A stretch of 49,221 bases of DNA from a bacterium (lineage in GTDB: Bacteria > Zhuqueibacterota > Zhuqueibacteria > Residuimicrobiales > Krinioviventaceae). The translations under genes and the position numbers were made by a program. The stretch is from positions 1-49,221 of the forward strand of contig JAKQIY010000027.1 in the NCBI GenBank assembly GCA_029561455.1. Reading direction: 5' to 3'. The notes under the pieces were generated by a model, which saw only the letters and a list, made by a program, of their open reading frames with translations, made no database searches and was not told the DNA's origin. Of this stretch, positions 5,522 to 34,073 are shown piece by piece (position 1 is the stretch's first letter; every line of letters starts with the position of its first letter).

Positions 5522-7519
5522 ATGAAAAAACAATGCCACGAACATAACCGAAAAATAACCTGTCCTGGCAAGAACGGCGCGCGTCATACCGGACGCTGGC
5601 TGTTTACCGCGCTGGGCGTGTCGTCGCTGGTGTGGTTCCTGGTTCGGGTCATCCCCAAACCGAGCCGGGCGGCGTATCCCTGTATGAAAGTTGCCGCGCC
5701 CCTGGCCTCGACCTTTGTTACATACCTGCTGGGCTTGCTCGCAACCATTTTTGCACTCCGTAAAGCAAAATTATCATACCGCAATTCCCGCTATATTCTG
5801 GCGACCTTATGCCTGGTAACCGCGCTTGTCGCCGGTTCGTTCACCTTTCTGCATACAAAATCACCGGCTTTGGCAATAAACGAGGATCTGTATACCAACA
5901 CCGATCCGCTGGGCCGTAATAACCCGGTAGGCGAAGCCAAAGGCGTTGTACCGGGTCGCGTGGTGTGGGTGCATGACAAGGATGCCACGGACGAATTTTG
6001 CGAGCCCACCACCAATAACGACGGCTATTTTCTGGAAAAAAACAACGATCAGCGGGTCATCGACGCCATGTTCTCCGGCGCTATCAAATCCCTGACCAAT
6101 AAAGAAACCGACGCCCAGGCGTGGCAAGCAATTTTTGAATATTTTAACGAACAGCATGGCAACGGCGTAACCGGCTATACCGCCGGGGAAAAAATCTTTA
6201 TCAAGATCAATTCCGTGCATGCCAACAGTTTTAAAAGCGACGGTTCTATCCAATATAACGGAGATTACGGCTGTGTCGACACCTCGCCCCAGGCGGCGCT
6301 GGCAGTCATCCGGCAACTGGTTTACCGCGCCGGCGTGCCCCAGGAAGATATTTATATCGGCGATCCCTATCGCAAAATTTTCAAGCATTGTTACGATATG
6401 TGGCATTCCGAGTTCCCCAATGCCCATTACATGGTTAATGGTAGCCAGGACGGCCGCGAAACGCTCAAAGTGGATACGAAAAAGGTGATCTTTTATTCCG
6501 ATAGCGGCAAGGTGCTAACGCAAACCTACGATCGCCTGTACTCCGCTATGAATAACGCCAAATACATCATTAACCTGCCGGCGCTAAAAGGGCATCGCTG
6601 GGCCGGCACCTCCTATTTCGCCAAAAACTTTTTCGGCGCCAACACCCGCTCCGGCGCATCGCATTTGCATAACGGCACAATTTTGCCGGACTGGAATGTT
6701 GAAGCGCGCACCGGTTACGGCAAATACCGCGTGTTCGTTGACCTGATGGGCAGTAAATACCTCGGCGGCAAGACTGTTCTATACGTTATGGACGGCCTGT
6801 GGGCAACCTCGTATGAACACGATCCGCCTTGTAAATTCCGCATGGCGCCGTTTAATGACGACTGGTGCAACTCTTTGTTCCTATCGATGGACCCGGTGGC
6901 TATTGAATCCGTTTGCCTCGATTTTATGCAGGCCGAGTTCGCCGAAGCCGATTCGACGATCTCGCCGATGCGTCATATCTTTGTCCATTACAACGGCGTG
7001 GACGATTACCTGCACCAGGCCGCCGATCCCACCAAATGGCCGGAAGGATTCAACTATAATCCGGATGGCGACGGAGTAGCGCTGCCCAGCCTCGGTGTTC
7101 ATGAACACTGGAACAATGCACAGGATCGCCAGTATTCGCGCAACCTCGGTACCGGCGACGGCATCGAACTGGTACAGGCGCAAACGGATTATACGGATAT
7201 AGCCCGGCAAAACCCAGCCGCGGCGCCGCTGCAATTTACCCTGCGGCAGAATTATCCCAATCCCTTTAATCCGACTACCAATATAACTTATGACCTGCAA
7301 TCGTCCGCCGACGTCAGGTTGGATATTTTCAATGTGAATGGTCAACGTATTGCCGCCCTGGTCAACGAAAAACAGGACACCGGCTCTCATAGCATTACCT
7401 GGAACGGACATAGCGACAGCGGCGCCCCGGCCGCTTCGGGTATTTATTTGTACCGCCTCACCGTTACAACCAACCAGAAAAGGCTGACGCAGGAAAAAAC
7501 CATGACGCTGCTGAAATAA
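5522..7519 (+). CDS. DUF362-like secreted protein with T9SS tail
   Basis: Protein of 665 aa. Three hydrophobic segments in the first ~125 residues (about 27-43, 60-82 and 93-112) precede a globular domain from about residue 140. That domain has the look of the DUF362 family: NPVGEAKGVVPGRVVW, a PGEK-like IFIKIN strand, NLPALKGH, and a late VMDGLWA segment. The function of DUF362 proteins is not settled; some carry Fe-S clusters, but no clustered CxxC motifs are seen here. The C-terminus is a T9SS type A sorting domain starting QNYPNPFN. A multi-span N-terminus together with a T9SS tail is odd and may reflect membrane anchoring before processing. A terminator follows at 7577, so it is probably monocistronic. 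Confidence 0.8.
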   Translation: MKKQCHEHNRKITCPGKNGARHTGRWLFTALGVSSLVWFLVRVIPKPSRAAYPCMKVAAPLASTFVTYLLGLLATIFALRKAKLSYRNSRYILATLCLVTALVAGSFTFLHTKSPALAINEDLYTNTDPLGRNNPVGEAKGVVPGRVVWVHDKDATDEFCEPTTNNDGYFLEKNNDQRVIDAMFSGAIKSLTNKETDAQAWQAIFEYFNEQHGNGVTGYTAGEKIFIKINSVHANSFKSDGSIQYNGDYGCVDTSPQAALAVIRQLVYRAGVPQEDIYIGDPYRKIFKHCYDMWHSEFPNAHYMVNGSQDGRETLKVDTKKVIFYSDSGKVLTQTYDRLYSAMNNAKYIINLPALKGHRWAGTSYFAKNFFGANTRSGASHLHNGTILPDWNVEARTGYGKYRVFVDLMGSKYLGGKTVLYVMDGLWATSYEHDPPCKFRMAPFNDDWCNSLFLSMDPVAIESVCLDFMQAEFAEADSTISPMRHIFVHYNGVDDYLHQAADPTKWPEGFNYNPDGDGVALPSLGVHEHWNNAQDRQYSRNLGTGDGIELVQAQTDYTDIARQNPAAAPLQFTLRQNYPNPFNPTTNITYDLQSSADVRLDIFNVNGQRIAALVNEKQDTGSHSITWNGHSDSGAPAASGIYLYRLTVTTNQKRLTQEKTMTLLK

Positions 7520-21869: not shown

Positions 21870-24368
21870 ATGAAGCGTTTATATTTCAACCTTTGGGTTA
21901 TAGTAATAGTGTTGATTTTTTGTTCATTTGTACAGGTTTTTGCTTACCGCCTAATAAATCCAATAAGTCCAACTTCACCTTATGGTAAATCACCACAATC
22001 CGGCCCACCTTTTCTCCGGTTTGGCAGCGTTAATCAAAATTATCATTATGTCAATAGCGCTTATAATAATTTTACCACAAATGTTGAAAGCGCTTTTTCC
22101 AGTTGGAATGAAGCCGGCACGGTAACTTTTGACTGGGATGCATCTGCAGGTCTGGGGTTAAATACATATTATAACGATGATCGTAGTGACTCAGGTATTG
22201 TAAACCCGGGTGAAGCCGGCGTGGGTTTTTATCAAAAAATTCTTGATATGGAAGACTCTTATATCCAACTGAATACGTTACATACCTGGTTGAATAATGG
22301 AACACAAGATTTATTCAATGATAATTTTGATGTAGAGACGATAATACTTCATGAAATCGGCCATATTCATGGTCTGGCGCATCCACTTACCAGCAGTTAC
22401 GATTACGAAAATGGAGACCCGGATGCCCCGATCATGGCCGGCGGTGATAATAAGTATTTTTTGACCAATATTGCAAGAGAGCTGAGTGCAGACGATGAAA
22501 ACGGTACTCGGTTTTTGCAATATAATGCCTGGGTACCGAAACAGTGTTCTACGCTTTTGACTGCTTTGAACAATACCTTCTCAGGCGTTACCATATATTT
22601 CACTTCGGGGATGCAAACTTTATCTCAAGATTTAACAGTTTCCTCAGATAAAACATTACGAATAAAAACCGGCACGACTCTTATTATGAATGGATACAAA
22701 CTAACTACAACTACCGGTACAATAATAGTTGAAGCCGGCGCAACAATAACGCCGTGCATCAAACGTATGTCAAGCAACTCAATAAAAGGTTTATATCCTA
22801 CTATTACCTCAGCTATTATCGACTTGTCTGCCGGTCAGTATATTAGCCTCGGAGCCGGTACTATTACTGAAAATGTCTCCATGCCCAGCAATTTATCATT
22901 ATATGGTACTGGTATGAATGCCACCACAATAAATGGTAATGTGGCCTTTACCAGCAAAAGTAACAGTGAAATATCTGAATTAACAGTTAACGGCGATATT
23001 ACAGTGAATGGTGGTTCCGGAATTTGTATAAATAATTTAAAAGCCAAAGATATAATTGATCTGGAAAACGGTTCTCTTCATGTAATAAGTGATGTAACAT
23101 TATCTAATAGCGGTTACATTGATATTTATCAAACAGCGCCAGATTTAATGTATGTCACTTCAAGCAATAGTGTAAACTATGGCGTTATTTGTGGAGATGC
23201 CGATTATAGTATGTATGGCGGCGTCTTTGAAAACAAAACCCGCGCGCTGTACTGTGTCACCAATTCTGATGTAATCGTCGAGGAAACGGAGTTCTGTAAC
23301 AATACCTATGATATTTATAGCGCTAACGGCAGTTCGGTAGATGTTTCCGGTTCGCCGGTGATTATTATGTCTTCCTGCCCGCCGCCAATATATGGTTCAG
23401 TAACGCTTAATGATCCCTGCACAGCCTGTGCTTTGCCCAAATTATCACCTGATGCGACAAATTATGAATATTCACTTCCCCTGGAAGGTATTGATGGCTC
23501 GCCTGAAAGTGTGGAATTTGCAGAATCAAGTAACTTGTTTAGAGCAATTCAAACGAGCATTTACCAGGATCGTAAAGACAGCGTTCGCTACGACATCAGC
23601 AAATACGCGCCCCAATACAACCAGGTAATAACCGGCCTGAAGGCGTTTGTAGCCAAATACCCGGACACTGAATATGCCCAACATGCGCTTAAATTCATCG
23701 ATTACAGCTATCGCGCGCTGGATCAGCAGGATACTTTTGCCGCATACCTTACTGCGCTTGGTAAAGACGCCAAATACAAATCCCTGCAAACCGCCATTAA
23801 AAGCCAGTTCATTCCTTATTACGTTGGCAAAGGCGAATACCAAACCGCGCTGAATCTGACCGATGAAGTGATGAAAGCGCAAACCGATCCCGAAAATGCG
23901 CTGTATTACCTGTACCGCCAGGGCGTTATCTATCACAAATATTTAAAAGACGCCGCTAAAGCGGAAGAGATTTATAAGCAGGTTATTGATACCGATCCGA
24001 ATTCGGCCATGGCGTTTTCCGCCGGGGTGCGGTTGGGCAAGCTCGGCCAGGTATACGAAGGCGAAAACAAACCTTCTCCTACTGAACCGGAAGTAAAATT
24101 TGCCATTCGCAACCATCCCAATCCGTTCAACCCGGTTACCAATATCCAGTTCGACCTGCCGGCAGCAGACCACGTAACCTTAAAAGTCTATGATATAACA
24201 GGCCGCGAAGTTATTACACTAGTGGATGCTCTGCAGGGCGCGGGTTCGCATACCATTATGTGGAACAGCCAGGATAAATTCGGCCAACGCGTCGCCAGCG
24301 GCATGTATTTCTATCGCATCGAGTACCGGGGCCAGGTTCTCACCAACAAGATGATATTAATGAGGTAA
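21870..24368 (+). CDS. Matrixin-type zinc metalloprotease with T9SS tail
   Basis: Protein of 832 aa with a signal peptide (1-25). Residues ~45-220 are a matrixin-like protease: HEIGHIHGLAH with zinc ligands His161, His165 and His171 and catalytic Glu162, then PIMAGG as the Met-turn. The middle (~240-540) is repetitive and beta-helix-like. Residues ~560-740 carry helical TPR-like repeats (FVAKYPDTEYAQHALKFID, LKDAAKAEEIYKQVIDTDPN). The end is a T9SS sorting domain (RNHPNPFNPVTNIQF..KMILMR), in which the usual QNYPNPFN is varied to NHPNPFN. It likely degrades protein outside the cell. Base composition shifts at about 23.5 kb: the beginning is AT-rich and the TPR-plus-tail part is GC-richer, which hints at a composite gene. 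Confidence 0.9.
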   Translation: MKRLYFNLWVIVIVLIFCSFVQVFAYRLINPISPTSPYGKSPQSGPPFLRFGSVNQNYHYVNSAYNNFTTNVESAFSSWNEAGTVTFDWDASAGLGLNTYYNDDRSDSGIVNPGEAGVGFYQKILDMEDSYIQLNTLHTWLNNGTQDLFNDNFDVETIILHEIGHIHGLAHPLTSSYDYENGDPDAPIMAGGDNKYFLTNIARELSADDENGTRFLQYNAWVPKQCSTLLTALNNTFSGVTIYFTSGMQTLSQDLTVSSDKTLRIKTGTTLIMNGYKLTTTTGTIIVEAGATITPCIKRMSSNSIKGLYPTITSAIIDLSAGQYISLGAGTITENVSMPSNLSLYGTGMNATTINGNVAFTSKSNSEISELTVNGDITVNGGSGICINNLKAKDIIDLENGSLHVISDVTLSNSGYIDIYQTAPDLMYVTSSNSVNYGVICGDADYSMYGGVFENKTRALYCVTNSDVIVEETEFCNNTYDIYSANGSSVDVSGSPVIIMSSCPPPIYGSVTLNDPCTACALPKLSPDATNYEYSLPLEGIDGSPESVEFAESSNLFRAIQTSIYQDRKDSVRYDISKYAPQYNQVITGLKAFVAKYPDTEYAQHALKFIDYSYRALDQQDTFAAYLTALGKDAKYKSLQTAIKSQFIPYYVGKGEYQTALNLTDEVMKAQTDPENALYYLYRQGVIYHKYLKDAAKAEEIYKQVIDTDPNSAMAFSAGVRLGKLGQVYEGENKPSPTEPEVKFAIRNHPNPFNPVTNIQFDLPAADHVTLKVYDITGREVITLVDALQGAGSHTIMWNSQDKFGQRVASGMYFYRIEYRGQVLTNKMILMR

Positions 24369-24452: not shown

Positions 24453-24480
24453 AACCCGGCGCTGTCACGCCGGGTTTTTT
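24453..24480 (+). terminator. Terminator after the metalloprotease gene
   Basis: AACCCGGCG (24453-24461) pairs with CGCCGGGTT (24468-24476), followed by a T run to 24480. The rest of 24369-24702 holds a REP-like fragment and the promoter region of the next gene. Confidence 0.88.
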
Positions 24481-24702: not shown

Positions 24703-26268
24703 GTGAAAAAAATAATCATCTCCGCACTGCTATATCTATTGATTAACTCTCAACTAATCGGTCAGGCTGTTAACCTGCCCCTGGAACACTGGGCCTATTC
24801 GTTCCTCGAACGCTGTGAAGCCAAAGGACTGATCACCTCCTTTGATCTGCGCGTTAAACCGGTCTCCCGCGTGGTGTTGGCGGAACTGATTATACAAATG
24901 GAACAGCGCCTGCAAACGCAGCCTGGTCTGTTTTCCACAGCGGATTGGCAATTGTTCGAACAACTCAAAGGTGATCTGGTAGACGAACTGGCGGCAATGA
25001 ATATCTCCATAAAAGGCCCGCGGGAAAAACACGCCCTTACTTACAGTGAACAAAACAGCAACTTTTATGTCGATATACAGGGCCGCGAAACGATCATCTC
25101 CAACCGGGGCGATCAATACGATCCGGCGCAGCGCATGTCCGAAACCACCCTGGGCGGCATCATCCGCGGCAATCTCGGCGGCGTCATTGGCTTTTACGCC
25201 GACGCCCGTAACTCTTTACTGCGCGGCAGCGATGTAGAAGGCGAAAGCTTTGATGTTTCTCAAGGCTCGCCGGTGGTTACCTCCGGCTCCAACGTCTACC
25301 GCGACCGTGCCACCGGTTACTTTACCTGGGAAAAACCCTGGCTGCGCCTTGAAGTAGGCCGCGATGAATTTGCCTGGGGTCCCGGCAGCCACGGCGCTCT
25401 CAGCATCAGCGCCAATAATCCCCCGGCCGATATGCTGCGGCTGGGCGTGCGCATGAAGCGCTTCCAGTTCACCAGCGTACACCAGTTCCTCAGCAGCAGC
25501 ATTGGCTCCAAGTACCTGGCCGCGCACCGGTTAGACTTTCTCATCAAGCCCGGCTTGACCCTCGGCGCCACCGAAACGGTGGTTTACGGCGGATGCGATG
25601 TGGAACCGGCCTATATCAATCCCCTCATTCCCTACCATGTGGCGGAACATCACCTGGGCGACCAGGATAACAATACCATGAGCTTTGACTTTTCCCTCAA
25701 CCTCATTCCCAACACCCGCATTTACGGCGAATACTTTATCGACGACATGACTTCCACCGAAAGTCTTACCGGTTATTTCGGCAACAAATTCGCTTTCCTC
25801 ACCGGCATAACCTGGGCGGACGCCCTGTTCGTTCCCAAACTGGATGTGCAGCTCGAATACGCCCGCATCGAGCCCTTTGTTTACGCTCATCAGGACAGCA
25901 TCAATATTTATGTGAATTACGATAAAAGCATCGGCCACTGGCTCGGCCCGAACGCCGATTCTTTTTACCTGTTGGCCGGTTACCAGTTCGACCGCGACAT
26001 CCGCCTGGAACTCTCCGCCGAGCACATCCGCAAGGGACAAGGAGACCTCGACACTACCGATCGTCCCGACAGTGGCGTTAAGAAAACATTTCTCGGCGGC
26101 AATGTCGAATCACGCAGTTTGTTCGGCATCAAACTCACCGACCAGGTGCGCCGCGATGCCTTTATCGCTCTTTCCTACACATTTTCAAAAACCGGTAATT
26201 TACAGCGGCAAAACAATAACGATTCAAACGACCACCTGGCGCGTTTTGAATTTTATTTCAACTATTAA
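24703..26268 (+). CDS. Wzi-like capsule assembly outer-membrane protein
   Basis: Protein of 521 aa from a GTG preceded by AAGGAT, with a signal peptide of ~20 residues. The opening LPLEHWAYSFLERCEAKGLI and the later RLEVGRDEFAWGPGSHGALSIS resemble the Wzi family, an 18-strand outer-membrane barrel that anchors capsular polysaccharide. The rest alternates as expected for barrel strands and ends in an aromatic residue (FEFYFNY), a usual outer-membrane insertion signal. It is the first gene of a plus-strand run with three glycosyltransferases (17 bp to the next start), so a role in binding or exporting the product of that cluster is plausible. Confidence 0.8.
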   Translation: MKKIIISALLYLLINSQLIGQAVNLPLEHWAYSFLERCEAKGLITSFDLRVKPVSRVVLAELIIQMEQRLQTQPGLFSTADWQLFEQLKGDLVDELAAMNISIKGPREKHALTYSEQNSNFYVDIQGRETIISNRGDQYDPAQRMSETTLGGIIRGNLGGVIGFYADARNSLLRGSDVEGESFDVSQGSPVVTSGSNVYRDRATGYFTWEKPWLRLEVGRDEFAWGPGSHGALSISANNPPADMLRLGVRMKRFQFTSVHQFLSSSIGSKYLAAHRLDFLIKPGLTLGATETVVYGGCDVEPAYINPLIPYHVAEHHLGDQDNNTMSFDFSLNLIPNTRIYGEYFIDDMTSTESLTGYFGNKFAFLTGITWADALFVPKLDVQLEYARIEPFVYAHQDSINIYVNYDKSIGHWLGPNADSFYLLAGYQFDRDIRLELSAEHIRKGQGDLDTTDRPDSGVKKTFLGGNVESRSLFGIKLTDQVRRDAFIALSYTFSKTGNLQRQNNNDSNDHLARFEFYFNY

Positions 26269-26285
26269 TTCCAGGCGCCGGTATT

Positions 26286-27389
26286 ATGCAAATTCTTACC
26301 GTGTTATTATGCCTGCTCACCGGCGGCTATGTCATTGCCATTGCCGTGATCGCTGTTGGCATCAAACGGCTTGCCCGCAACCGGCAGCCGCAGCAGCCCC
26401 AGGTTTCGGTAGTGGTTGCCGCCCGCAATGAAGCCGAAAACATCCCGGTATTGCTACGCTGCCTGGAACAACAGGACTATCCCGCCGACAAATATGAGAT
26501 CATTATTGTTAATGACGATTCAACAGACAATACAGCGGCCCTGGTAGAGGCATTTGCACAGCGCTCCTCATGCCGCGTTTTGTTACTCGCTACCACCAAC
26601 CGCGCGATTGTCGCTTCGCCGAAAAAGAACGCCCTCAGTCTCGGCATTGCCCGCGCCGGCGGCGAGATCATTCTGCTGACCGATGCGGATTGCGCGCCGC
26701 CGCCCGGCTGGATTTCCGGGATGGTTGCCTGTTTTACCCCGCAAACCGGCATGGTGATCGGTTATTCATCCTACGAATTGCCGGCGCCGCGTTCCATTGC
26801 CGCCAGACTGCTGGCGCTGGACGCCTTGTCCCTGGCCGCGGTCGCCGCCGGAACTACCGGCTGGGGCAAACCCGCTACCTGTAACGGCCGCAACCTGGCT
26901 TATCGCAAATCTGTTTATGAACAGGTCGGCGGTTTTGAAAAGATCAAACAGTTTGTCTCCGGCGATGACGATCTGTTCTTAAAGCTGGTCTTAAAATATA
27001 CGGACTGGGAAATCCGTTATGGATTGGACGCCAAACTGGTCGTACCGACGAGTATGCTCAAAAACCTGCGCCAGTTCGTCTACCAGCGCACCCGGCATGC
27101 CTCTAAAGGTTTTCATTACGAACTTGCAAAAATAGCCGGTCTCTTTATATTGTATTTTTTTAATGTACTGGTTATTTTTGGGCTCGTTTTTATGGCAAAT
27201 ATGCAGTATATTCCCCTGGCTTGTTACAGCGCAAAAATTTTAGCCGAGTTTGGTATTTTGTACCGGTTTGCCGGAATTATGCGCCGTCGGCATTTTTTAA
27301 CAGTATTTCCCCTGGCTATGATCCTGCACCCATTATACATAGCTGTTTTCGGCGCATTGGGTCAAACCAAAAAATTCAAATGGAAATAA
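26286..27389 (+). CDS. Membrane glycosyltransferase, family 2 (first of three)
   Basis: Protein of 367 aa. One N-terminal membrane helix (1-26), a GT2 domain (~40-270), and about three helices at the C-terminus (~280-360). Visible motifs: VVVAARNEAENIP, IIIVNDDSTDNT, the metal-binding TDADC (Asp133-Ala-Asp135), and acceptor-site SGDDD (225-229). The position of the QxxRW motif reads QRTRH (267-271), i.e. the Trp is replaced by His, unlike its two paralogues. GT2 enzymes of this shape transfer sugars from nucleotide donors on the inner face of the membrane and may be processive. It starts 17 bp after the Wzi-like gene and has no evident SD, which suggests translational coupling. Confidence 0.88.
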   Translation: MQILTVLLCLLTGGYVIAIAVIAVGIKRLARNRQPQQPQVSVVVAARNEAENIPVLLRCLEQQDYPADKYEIIIVNDDSTDNTAALVEAFAQRSSCRVLLLATTNRAIVASPKKNALSLGIARAGGEIILLTDADCAPPPGWISGMVACFTPQTGMVIGYSSYELPAPRSIAARLLALDALSLAAVAAGTTGWGKPATCNGRNLAYRKSVYEQVGGFEKIKQFVSGDDDLFLKLVLKYTDWEIRYGLDAKLVVPTSMLKNLRQFVYQRTRHASKGFHYELAKIAGLFILYFFNVLVIFGLVFMANMQYIPLACYSAKILAEFGILYRFAGIMRRRHFLTVFPLAMILHPLYIAVFGALGQTKKFKWK

Positions 27390-27449
27390 ACAGCCCGGCA
27401 GGTCCGGGCCTGATCCTTTTCACACCTTTTCGCCGGTAAAGGATACACT

Positions 27450-28601
27450 GTGCTGCTCACATTATACATTCTGACCACCCTTTATGTCGCCACGATCATT
27501 CTGTTTCTGATCGGCCTGTCGAAAAAAAAACCGGGAACTAACCGGGACCGATTGACGGTTACGGTAATCGTAGCCGCCCGGAATGAAGAGCATACCATCG
27601 GCAATATTCTGCAGGACCTTACCCGGCAGACCTACCCCGTCTCCCTGTACCGCGTCATCGTCGTCAATGACGGCTCGACCGACAATACCCAGCAGGTGAT
27701 CGACAGCTTTACCCGGCGTTATGATTATATTACCTCCAGCAATATACAGGATATTCCGGCGGGATTCAGTCCCAAAAAATACGCGCTACAATGCGCTATA
27801 AATTCCAGCACCAGCGAGATCATTCTCACCACCGACGCCGATTGCCGGGTGCACCCCACCTGGATCGAGAACATGGTCACTTATTTTACTCCCAAAACCG
27901 GTTTTGTCATCGGGTTTTCCCAGTTTGGCGCTAAAAACGAACCGCAGAACTGCATTGAACGCTTGCAGGCTTTTGATTTTCTGCAAATGATGGGCGTAGC
28001 CGCCGGAACCTGTAATATTGGCGTGCCGATGGCGGCTTCAGGGCAAAACCTGGGCTACCGCCGCGACGCCTTTATGCAAATAGGCGGCTTTACCCGTATA
28101 GCCCACCGGGTCTCCGGCGATGATGTGCTGCTGTTACAACTGGTAAAGAAATACACAGATTACCGGATCGTCTTTGCCGCCGATCCCCGCTCGCGGGCGT
28201 TTTCAGCGCCGCAGCCGGACCTGGTTTCGTTCATCAACCAGCGGATCCGCTGGGCGTCGAACGGGTCGTATCAATTATTCCTGAATATCCCGTTCTTTGC
28301 CTATTTATTGCTCTATTATGTGTTTTCTTTCTTTATCCTGTTCGGCCTGAGTTGCTCTTTCTTTACCCATCACCATCAGGCTTTCTTTTTATCCGGCCTG
28401 CTCATCAAACTGCTGGCCGATTTTGCAATAACCCTGAAAAGCGCTCTGACTTTTCAGCGCACCGACCTGCTAAAATATTTCCCGGTGTGGTTTATCGTGC
28501 AATTACCTTATATCGTCTATGTGGGCTTTTTGGGAACCTTTGGCAGCTTTAAATGGAAAGAACGCCGCCATAATGCTGTTGTAAATAAAAACCGTAGCTG
28601 A
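27450..28601 (+). CDS. Membrane glycosyltransferase, family 2 (second of three)
   Basis: Protein of 383 aa starting at GTG with AAAGGAT upstream. Same build as the preceding protein: N-terminal helix, GT2 core with VIVAARNEEHTI, VVNDGSTDNT, TTDADC (Asp129/Asp131) and SGDD (222-225), a complete QRIRW (264-268), then helices around 280-370. The ending GFLGTFGSFKWKERR resembles that of the first (GALGQTKKFKWK), so the two are close paralogues. A 265-bp gap holding element C separates it from the DUF3108 gene, so the cluster may be two transcripts. Confidence 0.9.
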   Translation: MLLTLYILTTLYVATIILFLIGLSKKKPGTNRDRLTVTVIVAARNEEHTIGNILQDLTRQTYPVSLYRVIVVNDGSTDNTQQVIDSFTRRYDYITSSNIQDIPAGFSPKKYALQCAINSSTSEIILTTDADCRVHPTWIENMVTYFTPKTGFVIGFSQFGAKNEPQNCIERLQAFDFLQMMGVAAGTCNIGVPMAASGQNLGYRRDAFMQIGGFTRIAHRVSGDDVLLLQLVKKYTDYRIVFAADPRSRAFSAPQPDLVSFINQRIRWASNGSYQLFLNIPFFAYLLLYYVFSFFILFGLSCSFFTHHHQAFFLSGLLIKLLADFAITLKSALTFQRTDLLKYFPVWFIVQLPYIVYVGFLGTFGSFKWKERRHNAVVNKNRS

Positions 28602-28664
28602 GTGTCCTTTTTTAAATTTAAAACAAACGATGTTTTTTTAATGATGACCTTTTTTAGAATAATC

Positions 28665-28774
28665 CTGTAGGATGGGCAGTGACATACTACTACTAATCAG
28701 GTGTTTTGCATTGAAAAATAATAAACTAATAATCACTTTTTCACTAGAGTATGTCACTGCCCATCGTTCTTTAC
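28665..28774. repeat. Element C, copy 3 (REPIN-like)
   Basis: 110 bp, CTGTAGGATGGG.. to ..CCCATCGTTCTTTAC. The arms at 28671-28688 and 28748-28765 form a perfect 18-bp inverted repeat. In this copy the inner halves read GACATACT/AGTATGTC instead of GTCCCACT/AGTGGGAC, a matched change on both sides. Confidence 0.85.
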
Positions 28775-28865
28775 CAGACAAAATTATAATCATTTAATCT
28801 TTTAAGATATTCAGATTTTAATTTTTGCATACACCAGACTTGAAATTTTGGATAGATTCAATAAA

Positions 28866-29660
28866 ATGACCCGATTTATTAAAAATACTAGCCAGCTTTT
28901 ACTTCATGCTACATTATTGTGCCCGGCACTTTTATTTTTTTTAATAGTTTTGCCGGGGTATGTTGACGGGCAGATCAATGAGGAATATGCCTATACCATG
29001 AAATTCAATGGCAAAAGCACCGCCAACTCGATCCTGAAATTCAAGCAAACCGATCCTGCCACTATGGAAATAACCTGGCTGCTAAAAGCCAAAGCCGTCT
29101 ATAAATTGATTTTCTCGGTAGACAATGTTTATCAATCTTTTGTCAATATTTCAACCGGCCTGCCGGAGGCGCTGTACAAGAATATCAAACAAAAAAACAT
29201 CTCCCAATCCTGGCGCACTGTCTATAATCGCGATTTGTTAACTGCCGCTACCGATAACGGCCAGCAATGGCCCATACAAAAAGGTAGCCTGGATATCCTT
29301 TCCCTGATCTGGGCTTTGCGCAACGGCAACCCGGCGCCGGGTGATTCACTCTGCTATCTGCTGGATATTGAAAGCCATTTATGGCGCCTGACCGGTAGGG
29401 TCGTTCCTGCCGCCGGGCATGAGACAAAACCCTTAAAAGGCGACCGCCAGGTGGAATTTACTTTTGCACCAGCGCAGCCGGTAAGCAGACGCGCCTGGAA
29501 AACCGACCTGCTCACAAACCGCATCTCGCGCGCCGATACCAAACTGACTATTAGTTTCAGCACATCACCGGATAATGTTCCGGTTTATTTGAAATTTGTC
29601 AATAGCGACAATACTGTCGAGATGCTGCTGGACAAAATTATATCAACAAAAACGCCGTGA
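28866..29660 (+). CDS. DUF3108-family exported protein
   Basis: About 264 aa from the ATG at 28866; a TTG at 28848 in frame is possible. The N-terminus has a long hydrophobic export segment (~residues 12-36) ending near VDGQIN. The mature part is all-beta, like the DUF3108 family: EYAYTMKFNGKSTANSILKFK, KAVYKLIFSVDNVYQSFVN, and a GSLDILSLIWALRN segment after WRTVYN. DUF3108 proteins are periplasmic and uncharacterised. The next gene starts three bases after its stop, so it belongs to the glycosyltransferase cluster. Confidence 0.78.
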   Translation: MTRFIKNTSQLLLHATLLCPALLFFLIVLPGYVDGQINEEYAYTMKFNGKSTANSILKFKQTDPATMEITWLLKAKAVYKLIFSVDNVYQSFVNISTGLPEALYKNIKQKNISQSWRTVYNRDLLTAATDNGQQWPIQKGSLDILSLIWALRNGNPAPGDSLCYLLDIESHLWRLTGRVVPAAGHETKPLKGDRQVEFTFAPAQPVSRRAWKTDLLTNRISRADTKLTISFSTSPDNVPVYLKFVNSDNTVEMLLDKIISTKTP

Positions 29661-29663
29661 TTT

Positions 29664-30800
29664 ATGCCCGATTTTGAACTTTTCGCCGCTATCATATTTG
29701 GACTCTATGCCGTGCTGGGGATTTTGTTATGCCTGGGCATACCCAACTCCGGCAACCGGCTCTGCAGCCAGGAACCCCCGGTGTCCGTCATCCTCGCTGT
29801 TCGTAATGAAGAACAGCATTTACCCGCCTGCTTAAATTCACTGTGCCGGCTGGATTATCCCGCCGACAAGCTGGAGATCATCCTGGTCGACGATCATTCC
29901 AGCGATTCCACGTCCCAAATCATTGCCAGTTACGCGCAAACCCGACCTAATATCCATTATTATTCACTGCCGCAGGACTCTTCTTCCCGGCGAGGCAAAG
30001 TCCGCGCGTTGGAATTCGGCATTGCCGTAAGCCGTGGGGAATTCATATTCCTTACCGACGCCGATTGCCGCGCGCCCCGCGCCTGGATCAAAAGCCTGCT
30101 GACGCAATTTACCGGCGCCACCGTCATGACCGGCGGGGTGACCCTGCTAGATAGCCCGGACGATCGTGCTTCGCTGTTTGGCAAAATACAATCCTGCGAC
30201 TGGCTGTTCCTGCTCGGCATCGCTGCCGCCGCGGCCGGATATGGTCTGCCGCTAAGCTGGTTCGGAAACAATATGGCGTTCCGCCGCTCTGTATATGATG
30301 AATGCGGAGGCTTTGCCAAAATCGGCCACAGCCTGGTCGAAGACCTGGCATTATTAAACCAGGTTAAAAAGCCCCGCCGCCGTAACATAAATTTTTCCTT
30401 CTCGCCCGATTCCCTGCTCTACAGTTCCCCGGCTTCCGGCCTGGCTGAATACTATAACCAGAGAAAACGCTGGGCGCGTGGACTGCGCCTTGTTCCCCTG
30501 CCGGGAATTGTATTACTCATTCTTGCTGTGCTCGCTCATTGTGTAACGATAGCCGCGCTGTTCATTCATCCCGCGCTTGCCGCAGCCGGCATCCTTGTGC
30601 TGACCTGCGCGGATTTACTTATACTGGCCCGCGCCGCCGGCCTGCTTGGCCGCAGAGAACTGCTTAAATATATCGGCGCCTTTGAAATCTATTATTTTTT
30701 ATATACACTATTACTGCCGCTGCTGTTGCTGTTCGACCATAAAACCAGTTGGAAAGACCGGCAATACCCGGCAAAAGCCGGGCAGCAACCCGGCCTTTAG
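29664..30800 (+). CDS. Membrane glycosyltransferase, family 2 (third of three)
   Basis: Protein of 378 aa: N-terminal helix (5-25), GT2 core with VILAVRNEEQHLP, ILVDDHSSDST, TDADC (Asp132/Asp134), a VED catalytic triad variant (225-227), intact QRKRW (266-270), and strongly hydrophobic C-terminal helices (~275-365). It is more distant from the first two than they are from each other. The start lies three bases after the DUF3108 stop. With the neighbours it implies assembly of a glycan or glycolipid using at least three sugar-transfer steps. Confidence 0.9.
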   Translation: MPDFELFAAIIFGLYAVLGILLCLGIPNSGNRLCSQEPPVSVILAVRNEEQHLPACLNSLCRLDYPADKLEIILVDDHSSDSTSQIIASYAQTRPNIHYYSLPQDSSSRRGKVRALEFGIAVSRGEFIFLTDADCRAPRAWIKSLLTQFTGATVMTGGVTLLDSPDDRASLFGKIQSCDWLFLLGIAAAAAGYGLPLSWFGNNMAFRRSVYDECGGFAKIGHSLVEDLALLNQVKKPRRRNINFSFSPDSLLYSSPASGLAEYYNQRKRWARGLRLVPLPGIVLLILAVLAHCVTIAALFIHPALAAAGILVLTCADLLILARAAGLLGRRELLKYIGAFEIYYFLYTLLLPLLLLFDHKTSWKDRQYPAKAGQQPGL

Positions 30801-30816
30801 CATCTAGACCTTGATT

Positions 30817-31869
30817 ATGAAACTATTTCCGCCTGTCTTGTTACACTATTATATTACCCGTCTGTGCAATTGCCGTTGCACATTTTGTGATATACCCGGC
30901 GAGGGTAAAGATGATGAAATTAGGTTTGCCGATCCACAGCAGGTAATACACAACCTGGCACAGGCCAAAAAACTGCATATTCCGTTTGTCGATTTTACCG
31001 GCGGCGAGCCCCTGCTGCATCCCCAACTTGCCGAACTGCTCCGCTACGCCAAAAAGCTGGGCTTGCGCACCTCGGTTACCACCAACTGCCTGCTGTACCC
31101 GCAACAAGCATATACCCTGAAGGGATTAGTTGATTTTCTACACTTTTCCCTGGACGCTCTCGACGAATCCCTGCACAACCACATACGCGGCAACAATGTT
31201 TATAGCGCGGTCATGCACAGCATCGACCTGGCGCGGGAACTGGGGGAAGCGCCGGACTTGCTTTATACCGTAACAAATGAAAATATCGCCGAACTCGAAC
31301 CCCTGGCGGAATTTGCCCGGCAGATGCGATTAATTTTGATTGTAAATCCGGTCTTTATAAAACCGGCGCTGGCGAATCGCAACCTGCCTTTGCTGGAACA
31401 ATTCAATCGTCATCCCAATGTCTACCTGAACAGGGCGTTTTTACGCTTGCGCAGCCGGGGCGGCAATTCCGTCTCTCATCCCCGCTGCCGCGCCGTATCT
31501 TCCACGCTGGTCATTTCGCCCGACAACCATATTCTGCTGCCCTGTTATCATTTTTGCCGCGACAAACTCCCGGTCCCGGCAGGGTTTGCAGAAATCTTTA
31601 CCAGCAAGACTTGGCGGGAATACCGCAGCATGCAGGGCCGTTTTAATTTTTGCGCCGGCTGTACGATCAACTGTTATTTCGATCCGTCGTTTTTATATGC
31701 GTCGGATTGTTACCTGCTGGAAAGCCTGGCCGCCAAAGCGCGGTATGCTTTGACCAAATATATCCATCATAAATTTCATTACCCGGATAAATCCGGCGCC
31801 CGTCTACGCGCCGCAGAAATTGCCGGCATAATCAACCGGAGAAAGAACCGTCTCATCCATGCTGATTGA
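30817..31869 (+). CDS. Radical SAM protein with extra C-terminal cysteines
   Basis: About 350 aa from the ATG at 30817; a TTG at 30811 is the alternative. The radical SAM cluster motif is at the very start: CNCRCTFC, with Cys17, Cys21 and Cys24 (CxxxCxxC). It is followed by FTGGEPLLHP (the GGE SAM-binding motif) and a TTNC strand. The C-terminal third has further cysteines in a SPASM-like order: HPRCRAVSS, LLPCYHFC, FCAGCTINCYF, SDCY. This suggests one or two auxiliary Fe-S clusters, as in peptide- or sugar-modifying radical SAM enzymes. The substrate is unknown. It overlaps the PHP gene by 11 bp and lies 16 bp after a glycosyltransferase gene, so modification of the glycan or its carrier is the simplest guess. 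Confidence 0.85.
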   Translation: MKLFPPVLLHYYITRLCNCRCTFCDIPGEGKDDEIRFADPQQVIHNLAQAKKLHIPFVDFTGGEPLLHPQLAELLRYAKKLGLRTSVTTNCLLYPQQAYTLKGLVDFLHFSLDALDESLHNHIRGNNVYSAVMHSIDLARELGEAPDLLYTVTNENIAELEPLAEFARQMRLILIVNPVFIKPALANRNLPLLEQFNRHPNVYLNRAFLRLRSRGGNSVSHPRCRAVSSTLVISPDNHILLPCYHFCRDKLPVPAGFAEIFTSKTWREYRSMQGRFNFCAGCTINCYFDPSFLYASDCYLLESLAAKARYALTKYIHHKFHYPDKSGARLRAAEIAGIINRRKNRLIHAD

Positions 31870-33490
31870 AAATGATTTTTGCCCCTCATTCTGGCTTTTC
31901 ATTGTGCCGTTTTTATATGCGGAAATCCATTATCGTATTCGCGGTTTGTTCAGCCGCTACGATCAAAAAGAGCCGGAGATTGTTGCCGATGTGCCGCACC
32001 GCATCGATCCCGACCAGCCGTTGCCGGTTCTGCTGCTCATCAAGGATGCCGATAGTTATCCCATCCGCCTGCTAAAGGTACAGGTTGTAGCGCACTATAA
32101 AGATCGCTCCCGCGAACTCTTGAACCTTCAGCAAGAGCCGGAATTGGTGTCTGCCCCCTTCTGGAGCCGCATTTACCCGGTTCATTTTCCCGAACCGCCC
32201 GCCACACCGGTTCAGGTTGAGGTGCATATTACCATCGACAATAACGGCCAATGCAAAACCATTACCAACGACAATTACAAACTGACCTCACACAAGCCAT
32301 TTACTGTCTGCGCCGACTCCCATCCGTTGCCGCGCAACGACAACTGGTATTTTGGCGATCTCCATTATCACAGCAATTATTCATCCGACCAGGTAGAGTA
32401 CGGCGCGCCCCTGGAAGATACCGTGACGATAGCTCGTGCAATGGGTCTCGATTTTATCGCCGCCACCGATCATTCTTATGACCTGGACGATTATTTTCAT
32501 GATTATTTGCACAACGATCCCACCCTGGCAAAATGGCATGATTACAGGGCAAAAATCGATGCGCTGAACAACACCTCTGCAAATTTCATCATCCTTCCGG
32601 GCGAGGAACTCTCGGCCGGGAATGCAGCTAACCGCAATGTCCATTTTTTGCTGCTTAATAACAGCGCCTTTTTCCCCGGCAGCGGCGACAGCGCCGAAAT
32701 TTGGTTTAAAACTCAACCGGAAATATCCATTGCCGGGGCATTACAACGACTTGAGCCCGATGCGCTGGCAATCGCCGCCCACCCGGAGGATAAACCGCCA
32801 TTTTTGCAATGGCTGCTGATTCGGCGGGGAAAATGGCAGGATAAAGACTATGGTCAACCGGGTTTGCATGGCGTGCAAATGTGGAATGGCCGCAAACGCC
32901 ATTTTATGCGCTACGGCCTCCGCAAATGGATCAGTCTGCTGCTGCACGGACAGCGGCTTACCCTGTTTGCCGGTAATGATGCACACGGAAACTTTAATCG
33001 TTTTCGTCAGCTCAGCACTCCTTTTCTGACCATGCGCGAACATGACGATGAAATTTTTGCCGGAACCCGCACCGGCGTTTATATGCAGGAATCTTTTACC
33101 CCCGCAAACCTGATCCGGGCGCTGCAACGCGGCAGGGTCATCGTTACCGACGGCCCGTTTGCGGAATTTTCTCTGGCTGCTCATAACGGCGAAACAGCTT
33201 TCCCGGTTGATGAGTATGGATGTGAATACGGGACAGTCCATATTACCGCAAAATCCTCTCCCGGGTATGGCAGCCTGGTAAAAATTTTCATTATGGCCGG
33301 AGATTGTGATACAAATAAGGAAACCTGCCTGCTGTCGTTACAGCCGGAGCCGGGTTGTATGGAATTAGCTATTAATAACGAATTGACCGGCCTGCCCCGC
33401 CGGGGATATCTCCGCCTGACGGCAATCAGCCAGGCCGGAGATCAACACTATCATTGTTTTACAAACCCCCTCTACCTCGTCCGGGACTAG
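31859..33490 (+). CDS. PHP-fold metallohydrolase (CehA/McbA-like)
   Basis: Protein of 543 aa. An N-terminal hydrophobic stretch (8-22) and a beta domain (~45-150) precede a PHP domain. Metal-binding motifs: GDLHYHSNYS (His169, His171), ATDHS, ILPGEELS, AIAAHPED and GNDAHGN. PHP enzymes are phosphoesterases or related hydrolases; the CehA/McbA group includes exported esterases and amidases. A last beta domain (~400-543) follows. The ATG overlaps the end of the radical SAM gene, so the two are coupled. It closes the glycan cluster and meets the minus-strand operon tail-to-tail 40 bp later. No terminator is visible in between. Confidence 0.85.
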   Translation: MLIENDFCPSFWLFIVPFLYAEIHYRIRGLFSRYDQKEPEIVADVPHRIDPDQPLPVLLLIKDADSYPIRLLKVQVVAHYKDRSRELLNLQQEPELVSAPFWSRIYPVHFPEPPATPVQVEVHITIDNNGQCKTITNDNYKLTSHKPFTVCADSHPLPRNDNWYFGDLHYHSNYSSDQVEYGAPLEDTVTIARAMGLDFIAATDHSYDLDDYFHDYLHNDPTLAKWHDYRAKIDALNNTSANFIILPGEELSAGNAANRNVHFLLLNNSAFFPGSGDSAEIWFKTQPEISIAGALQRLEPDALAIAAHPEDKPPFLQWLLIRRGKWQDKDYGQPGLHGVQMWNGRKRHFMRYGLRKWISLLLHGQRLTLFAGNDAHGNFNRFRQLSTPFLTMREHDDEIFAGTRTGVYMQESFTPANLIRALQRGRVIVTDGPFAEFSLAAHNGETAFPVDEYGCEYGTVHITAKSSPGYGSLVKIFIMAGDCDTNKETCLLSLQPEPGCMELAINNELTGLPRRGYLRLTAISQAGDQHYHCFTNPLYLVRD

Positions 33491-33530: not shown

Positions 33531-34073
33531 TCAGATCAGTTTGATTTTTTTGATAATTCTTTTCAAGCCGCGGCCATAAGCCTCCGGGACTATTTCAATA
33601 TGCCGGTCCTCGCCTTCGCCAAAACTCTCCGCTTTTATTGTTTCAATATTTTTTAATGCATCGTGAATAACAAAACGCTGATAACTGCTCATGTGCGGCA
33701 ACACAACTTTTTTACGACTTTGTATCGCCTCGTCCGCCTTGCTTTGCGCAAATTTACGGATGTTGCCGACCGGGTATATCTTTAATTCATAATCTTCCCC
33801 TTTGCGATAGGTTTTGGTTACCATATCGGGGTTGTGGTCAAACTGGCGATGCACCAGCTTGCGTTCAAATGCATTCAAACCGGTTAAACTCGCCGGCTCC
33901 AGTGAATCGCCTATTTCATTGATTACCTGTTCTACCAGCGCCTTGATTTTAGCGTTCTCTTGTTCATTGGCTTCCCGTTCGGGTCTTTCATGATGTTCAT
34001 GCCGGTCGCGGGGTCCGCGCCGGTCGCCGTCTCTATGTCGATCTCTTCTTGGTTTTCTGTCTTTATCGAACAT
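33531..34073 (-). CDS. Protein with two R3H domains
   Basis: 180 aa from the ATG at 34073 (AGAGG upstream); a TTG at 34082 in frame is less likely. The first ~45 residues are a highly charged, low-complexity Arg/Asp/His segment. Residues ~110-180 hold a good R3H domain: LPHMSSYQRFVIHDALKN..IKAESFGEGEDRHIEIVP with the R-x-x-x-H core. The preceding stretch LTGLNAFERKLVHRQFDH..VTKTYRKGEDYELKIYP aligns to it as a second, degenerate copy. R3H domains bind single-stranded nucleic acid, as in the Jag/KhpB RNA-binding proteins. It is the last gene of the minus-strand operon, after mpl. Confidence 0.85.
   Translation of the reverse strand: MFDKDRKPRRDRHRDGDRRGPRDRHEHHERPEREANEQENAKIKALVEQVINEIGDSLEPASLTGLNAFERKLVHRQFDHNPDMVTKTYRKGEDYELKIYPVGNIRKFAQSKADEAIQSRKKVVLPHMSSYQRFVIHDALKNIETIKAESFGEGEDRHIEIVPEAYGRGLKRIIKKIKLI

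Follow-up and report, generated by a model that had tools for sequence, protein, structure and literature searches.

What is made by a locus in which three membrane glycosyltransferases stand beside a radical SAM enzyme and a metallohydrolase? We addressed this question for seven consecutive genes (A–G) at positions 24703–33490 of a 49,221-nt stretch of DNA (the window), contained in a 5.85-Mb assembly of 85 contigs whose relatives carry the label candidate division KSB1. An initial annotation had put the set forward as an undescribed glycan pathway.

A compact locus of seven genes

All seven open reading frames were confirmed on the plus strand, and neighboring genes overlap or are separated by 3–60 nt, with the single exception of a 246-nt gap between C and D, so the tight co-directional layout first reported holds. 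In order, they encode a Wzi-like barrel, two GT2 glycosyltransferases, a periplasmic protein, a third GT2, a radical SAM enzyme, and a PHP hydrolase. A terminator-like hairpin with a T run (24453..24476, plus strand; found by consensus scan only and also recorded as inverted repeat I2) lies between A and the upstream gene and, judged from sequence, is likely the upstream border of the operon. Just upstream of the operon, positions 21870–24368 encode a secreted protein in which HEIGHIHGLAH resembles a zinc-protease motif and the C-terminal region resembles a sorting tail. Downstream of G, genes on the opposite strand begin at 33531; from their ORF sequences, read by eye, we take them to be an R3H-type protein, an Mpl-type Mur ligase, and a RodZ-like protein. 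The same block stands behind G in many relatives, suggesting that the operon occupies an old chromosomal site.

The C–D gap contains an inverted repeat (28671..28765, no strand assigned), with 18-bp arms that match perfectly and enclose a 59-nt loop. We considered a mobile-element family as its origin and rejected it, the repeat having a single copy in this genome. The gap holds a second radical SAM gene in several relatives.

Gene order is conserved, and the operon is split

A search for F in 82 genomes of the phylum and in a named genome collection yielded about 50 full-length orthologs of roughly 41%–57% identity, which outside KSB1 occur in Fibrobacterota, Zixibacteria, Latescibacterota, Chlorobiota, and Mcinerneyibacteriota; the named records with F are, as found, metagenome-assembled. 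The order A-B-C-D-E-F-G, or a retained part of it, recurs in KSB1 families f1–f4, f6, f10, and f15. Of the 27 loci resolved in the phylum, 23 have E immediately 5′ of F, an arrangement also present in ∼20 Fibrobacterota-type loci, and G lies immediately 3′ of F in 20 of 25 (counts for the phylum leave out the duplicate record L032). Conserved order in distant relatives had been proposed beforehand as a check on the locus, and the recurrence of A–G across families of the phylum argues that the grouping is more than chance. The F tree groups by phylum, except for one Planctomycetota sequence and one Bacillota-labeled record inside other groups, a pattern that fits mainly vertical descent.

Directly upstream of A, and in the same direction, a same-genus relative (L075/L032) carries a GT2, a methyltransferase, an LPG_synthase_TM (PF03706) protein, and another GT2. 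In our genome, the orthologous GT2, methyltransferase, PF03706 flippase-like gene, and GT2 are found on the minus strand of a 7.6-kb contig (G000:C55:2179-6194; L120), the last GT2 being 48% and the flippase-like gene 59% identical to those of the relative. On the break side of that contig, a convergent gene follows the last GT2; on the break side of the window, an unrelated gene and the terminator-like hairpin precede A. Since both break sides are visible, the operon is truly split in this genome, unless the contigs are misassembled. This split over two contigs accounts for the apparent absence of an exporter from 24703–33490. The original statement that the locus has no export component was correct for Wzx/Wzy, ABC, and synthase-export pairs, but not for the operon as a whole, in which the relatives and contig C55 have the flippase-like gene. 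PF03706 is a broad family, and the flippase role is a candidate one.

Some lineages have a NodB/PdaB-like deacetylase in the operon (PF01522, 106.8 bits), sometimes in place of a further GT2, and some have one or two extra radical SAM genes of families other than that of F. For one such family (L086, 1486–2643; L097, 1765–2916), the highest scores were with models of tungsten-cofactor oxidoreductases and metalloenzyme maturases, far under their cut-offs; L024 has a second further radical SAM family in the operon (6034–7101). Viewed across lineages, the loci show a full set in fixed order, with up to five GT2s, the flippase-like protein, the methyltransferase, A, D, F, and G, to which the deacetylase and further radical SAM genes are optional additions. 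In our reading, A–G are the distal half of an envelope-glycan operon that KSB1 bacteria have inherited vertically; this explanation, taken with the pathway proposed below, we hold with about even confidence.

Outside KSB1, the Fibrobacterota E–F loci come without A, D, G, or the flippase-like gene; in Mcinerneyibacteriota, F–G adjoins purine-biosynthesis genes and is without a GT2; and in Chlorobiota, F is set apart, also without a GT2. These settings suggest that F may serve a wider role than the glycan of the KSB1 operon. In several Fibrobacterota loci (L045, L049, L059, L061, L066, and L070), another set of genes recurs downstream of E–F: a tandem pair for NosD-like beta-helix proteins (∼270 aa each) plus one for a TPR protein (∼785 aa). 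Near F–G in Mcinerneyibacteriota (L064, 12472–14880; L053, 12492–14903), we noted a protein of 800 aa that has GT4 as its C-terminal domain and matches PHP weakly at its N terminus, preceded by a weak EamA-like membrane protein.

Glycosyltransferases and a Wzi-like protein

Gene A (24703..26268, plus strand), a Wzi-like outer-membrane barrel, belongs to PF14052 (93.5 bits against a cut-off of 30.1, over residues 212–509) and has an equivalent position in KSB1 relatives. The GT2s B (26286..27389), C (27450..28601), and E (29664..30800), all on the plus strand, match PF00535 with 76.7, 74.7, and 86.9 bits, respectively, and each has hydrophobic segments at both ends, one at the N terminus and two or three at the C terminus. 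B carries the motifs DDST, DADC, GDD, and QRTRH, C carries DGST, DADC, GDD, and QRIRW, and E is the most conserved neighbor of F. In a tree of GT2s, there are five orthologous clades, one for each operon position (B and C each falling in their own), suggesting that each GT2 has retained its role.

A capsule or exopolysaccharide system, in which the GT2s would polymerize a glycan, A would anchor it, and F and G would tailor it, shares the Wzi-family protein with our locus and would suit the D, D, D, QxxRW-type residues of C, E, and X, as in polymerizing GT2s; curated GT2 matches also include the PNAG synthase PgaC. However, the PgaC scores (64–77 bits) are far under the cut-off of 422 bits, and the Wza/Wzb/Wzc/Wzx/Wzy genes of Wzi-anchored capsule loci are absent from the A–G locus, as are an ABC exporter and a synthase-export pair. 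Neither Wzx/Wzy nor an ABC exporter with Wza–Wzc was found among the seven genes or the scanned neighbors in relatives. Moreover, five separate GT2 clades are easier to reconcile with a defined oligosaccharide than with a polymer, and A is optional, missing where the remaining operon persists. We therefore consider a capsule or exopolysaccharide unlikely.

Hopanoid glycosylation, by analogy with the HpnI-HpnK-HpnJ pathway to bacteriohopanetetrol cyclitol ether, was given almost no credence. The two systems have in common a membrane GT2, a sugar deacetylase (in some relatives), and a radical SAM enzyme acting on a glycolipid, with labor divided likewise, and the GT2s do match HpnI. But these matches score 45–66 bits against a cut-off of 310 bits, and the KSB1 operon differs in having five GT2s, a NodB-type deacetylase, and Wzi-like, LolA-like, and PHP proteins, with no hopane cyclase. 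Squalene-hopene cyclase matches occur in 15 of 81 genomes of the phylum and are mostly weak; in this genome there is none, which refutes the hopanoid route here unless the cyclase is missing from the assembly.

A radical SAM enzyme that may act on a sugar

Gene F (30811..31869, plus strand) matches PF04055 with 86.3 bits and has a C-terminal twitch/SPASM-like domain, with a CxxxCxxC motif and a conserved C-terminal cysteine set. Eight cysteines are invariant in 56 orthologs: C19/C23/C26, together with C226, C245, C281, C284, and C288. The initial annotation had described extra cysteine clusters in the plural; the five further cysteines bear out the general idea, but they would suffice for one auxiliary FeS cluster and do not establish two.

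An AlphaFold model of F (56 sequences, mean pLDDT 93.2) was closest to BlsE (7vob; Foldseek E 7.2e-14, Z 24.1, rmsd 3.4, 281 residues), with SuiB tied (Z 23.8), MoaA at 21.2, and DesII and BtrN lower. Given the tie between BlsE and SuiB, the fold alone does not fix the substrate of F. In a profile search, the core of F matched BlsE and its C-terminal part matched BtrN, and F scored 49.7 bits with the BlsE equivalog model TIGR04466, the cut-off of which is 400. BlsE is a radical SAM decarboxylase with cytosylglucuronic acid as its substrate (PMC3715490). BlsE, DesII, and BtrN share with F a fold with a C-terminal auxiliary-cluster domain, and the substrates of the known enzymes are sugars or cyclitols, whereas BlsE is 18% identical to F and has a different gene setting. 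In an archaeon, a relative of F with 32% identity is preceded by genes for a DegT aminotransferase, an NDP-sugar epimerase, and a GNAT acetyltransferase, neighbors that may point to amino-sugar chemistry. From the likeness to BlsE and the neighboring genes, we lean slightly toward F acting on a sugar. We also tried F as a prokaryotic viperin (anti-phage) and rejected it; the match to NF038283 (64.7 bits, cut-off 180) covers the core domain only, as do the PADLOC cross-hits.

F and G are linked yet separable

Gene G (31859..33490, plus strand), for which no signal peptide is predicted, passes the curated CehA/McbA domain model NF038032 (96.9 bits against a cut-off of 80). Characterized CehA/McbA members cleave carbamate pesticides. 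Residues typical of PHP metal ligands (H169, H171, H205, E249, H262, H308, D374, and H376) are invariant in 25 orthologs, as is an N-terminal motif, LYAE(I/T)HY...EPEI..DVPHR, and a simple hydropathy test gave no transmembrane segment. The conserved N-terminal domain and the linkage to GT2 genes distinguish G from other CehA/McbA hydrolases.

F and G overlap by 11 nt, and overlaps or near-overlaps recur in orthologs, so the overlap behind the coupling reported at the outset is a real feature of the locus, but the obligate sequential pair read into it is not supported. Among 19 F-less genomes examined, E lies directly 5′ of G in 11, and in the others, G either stands by itself or neighbors D, the deacetylase, or other genes. 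Together with the E–F loci of Fibrobacterota, which are without G, this indicates that F and G are separable.

One might then ask whether F and G work in general metabolism, salvaging cofactors or nucleotide sugars, their place at the end of a glycan operon being incidental. This would agree with the occurrence of F without a GT2 in Chlorobiota and Mcinerneyibacteriota and with the distribution of G, which is near-universal in the phylum (59 of 81 genomes, F-less families included), nearly always single-copy, and also found alone. The linkage of E to F across phyla and the persistence of the E–G linkage where F is absent nevertheless make it improbable.

Envelope proteins and the presence of LpxC

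Gene D (28848..29660, plus strand) encodes a secreted protein with an N-terminal hydrophobic segment. Its score with DUF3108 (PF11306) is 22.5 bits, under the curated cut-off of 26; the DUF3108 match was absent from a six-frame search, and a PDB sequence search with D gave no match. An AlphaFold-type model (22 sequences, mean pLDDT 89.4) placed D in the fold of EipB (6ntr; Z 16.5, 206 residues, rmsd 3.4), followed by a YmcC-like Bacteroides protein (3fzx; Z 10.0) and LolA (Z about 9–10). Of the family names first given to the seven genes, Wzi-like, GT2 (three times), radical SAM, and PHP were thus upheld, but the plain DUF3108 label for D was not. DUF3108 proteins have been described with a YmcC fold, citing 3FZX (PMC4364669), so D may still be a remote member. 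EipB is a periplasmic envelope-integrity protein, the exact role of which is open (PMC10787603). D shares the periplasmic curled beta-sheet barrel fold of EipB (DUF1849), LolA/LolB, and DUF3108/YmcC-like proteins but has ∼10% sequence identity to them, in addition to the sub-threshold PF11306 score, and sits in a GT2 operon. The LolA/EipB-like fold of the model suggests that D could be a periplasmic carrier.

LpxC was matched in 70 of 81 genomes of the phylum, this one included, and on these grounds, we rejected replacement of LPS as a general rule. No LpxC match was found in seven genomes of family f7 (G023 and G025–G030), mostly >90% complete, an observation that raises a possible loss of lipid A in this KSB1 lineage. 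The six f7 loci examined have kept E and G, with A, C, D, and F absent; where the contig is long enough, the GT2s, flippase-like gene, and deacetylase are also kept. Elsewhere, strong D matches (>100 bits) occur in LpxC-positive genomes, with one exception (G054, 78% complete). The absence of A and D from LpxC-less f7 fits with a role of both proteins in an outer membrane of the LPS type, a correlation limited to one family and perhaps to one evolutionary event. These comparisons suggest a core consisting of the flippase-like protein, the GT2s, and G, to which F, C, D, and A add a module that varies with lineage.

The same data bear on whether the operon decorates lipid A, the LPS core, or protein glycans, with the GT2, flippase-like protein, and deacetylase loading a modified sugar on polyprenyl phosphate. 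The combination of GT2, NodB-type deacetylase, and flippase-like protein recalls the aminoarabinose/galactosamine systems, and LpxC is matched in all F-bearing genomes of the phylum. On the other hand, the scanned genes of the loci included no GT83-type or OST-type transferase, and the core operon persists in the f7 genomes without an LpxC match. Decoration is accordingly quite unlikely in our judgment.

A proposed envelope glycolipid pathway

Taken together, we have good confidence in an envelope glycolipid or lipid-linked glycan pathway; the operon probably builds and delivers a sugar-bearing envelope lipid. The GT2s, anchored in the inner membrane, would glycosylate a lipid acceptor at its cytoplasmic face, and an amino sugar may be deacetylated and methylated; the NodB/PdaB-like deacetylase of several lineages points to N-acetylated sugars. 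F, through 5′-deoxyadenosyl radical chemistry and one auxiliary FeS cluster, might decarboxylate, dehydrogenate, or epimerize a sugar, as BlsE, DesII, and BtrN do, and G might cleave an ester, amide, or phosphoester of the intermediate, also on the cytoplasmic face. The PF03706 protein would help to turn the product toward the periplasmic side, D could ferry it through the periplasm in its LolA/EipB-like cavity, and A could place or retain it in the outer membrane. We put the chance that D and A deliver the product there a little below even. The entire chain, from GT2 assembly to outer-membrane placement, is less likely than not to hold as written: the sequences show the conservation, the membership, and the split of the operon, whereas the order of reactions, what F and G act on, and transport by D and A are inferred.

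The kinds of parts are all known, and as far as the literature searched allows, their combination appears new: The search, with subscription journals mostly outside it, returned nothing combining a radical SAM enzyme, glycosyltransferases, and DUF3108, which is weak evidence of novelty, and, within the same limits, nothing on KSB1 with LPS and the outer membrane. The original suggestion of an undescribed glycan gene set is therefore borne out to the extent that the set is conserved and has no counterpart in that literature. A bolder reading, which we hold to be unlikely, is that KSB1 and further FCB-type phyla make an undescribed class of glycolipid for the envelope, independent of lipid A, with a radical-SAM-remodeled sugar, its own periplasmic carrier (D), and its own outer-membrane receiver (A). 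Its independence of lipid A would follow from the retention of the GT2, flippase-like, and PHP core in genomes without an LpxC match.

Separating the core (the flippase-like protein, the GT2s, and G) from the module (A, D, and F) leads to clear predictions, which could be put to the test with the enzymes expressed one at a time. Should the locus yield a glycolipid in which a radical SAM enzyme has altered a sugar, that product would be a candidate for a surface component, and for a lipid biomarker, of uncultured bacteria that are widespread, and F would represent a new radical SAM family with defined gene partners among those acting on sugars.
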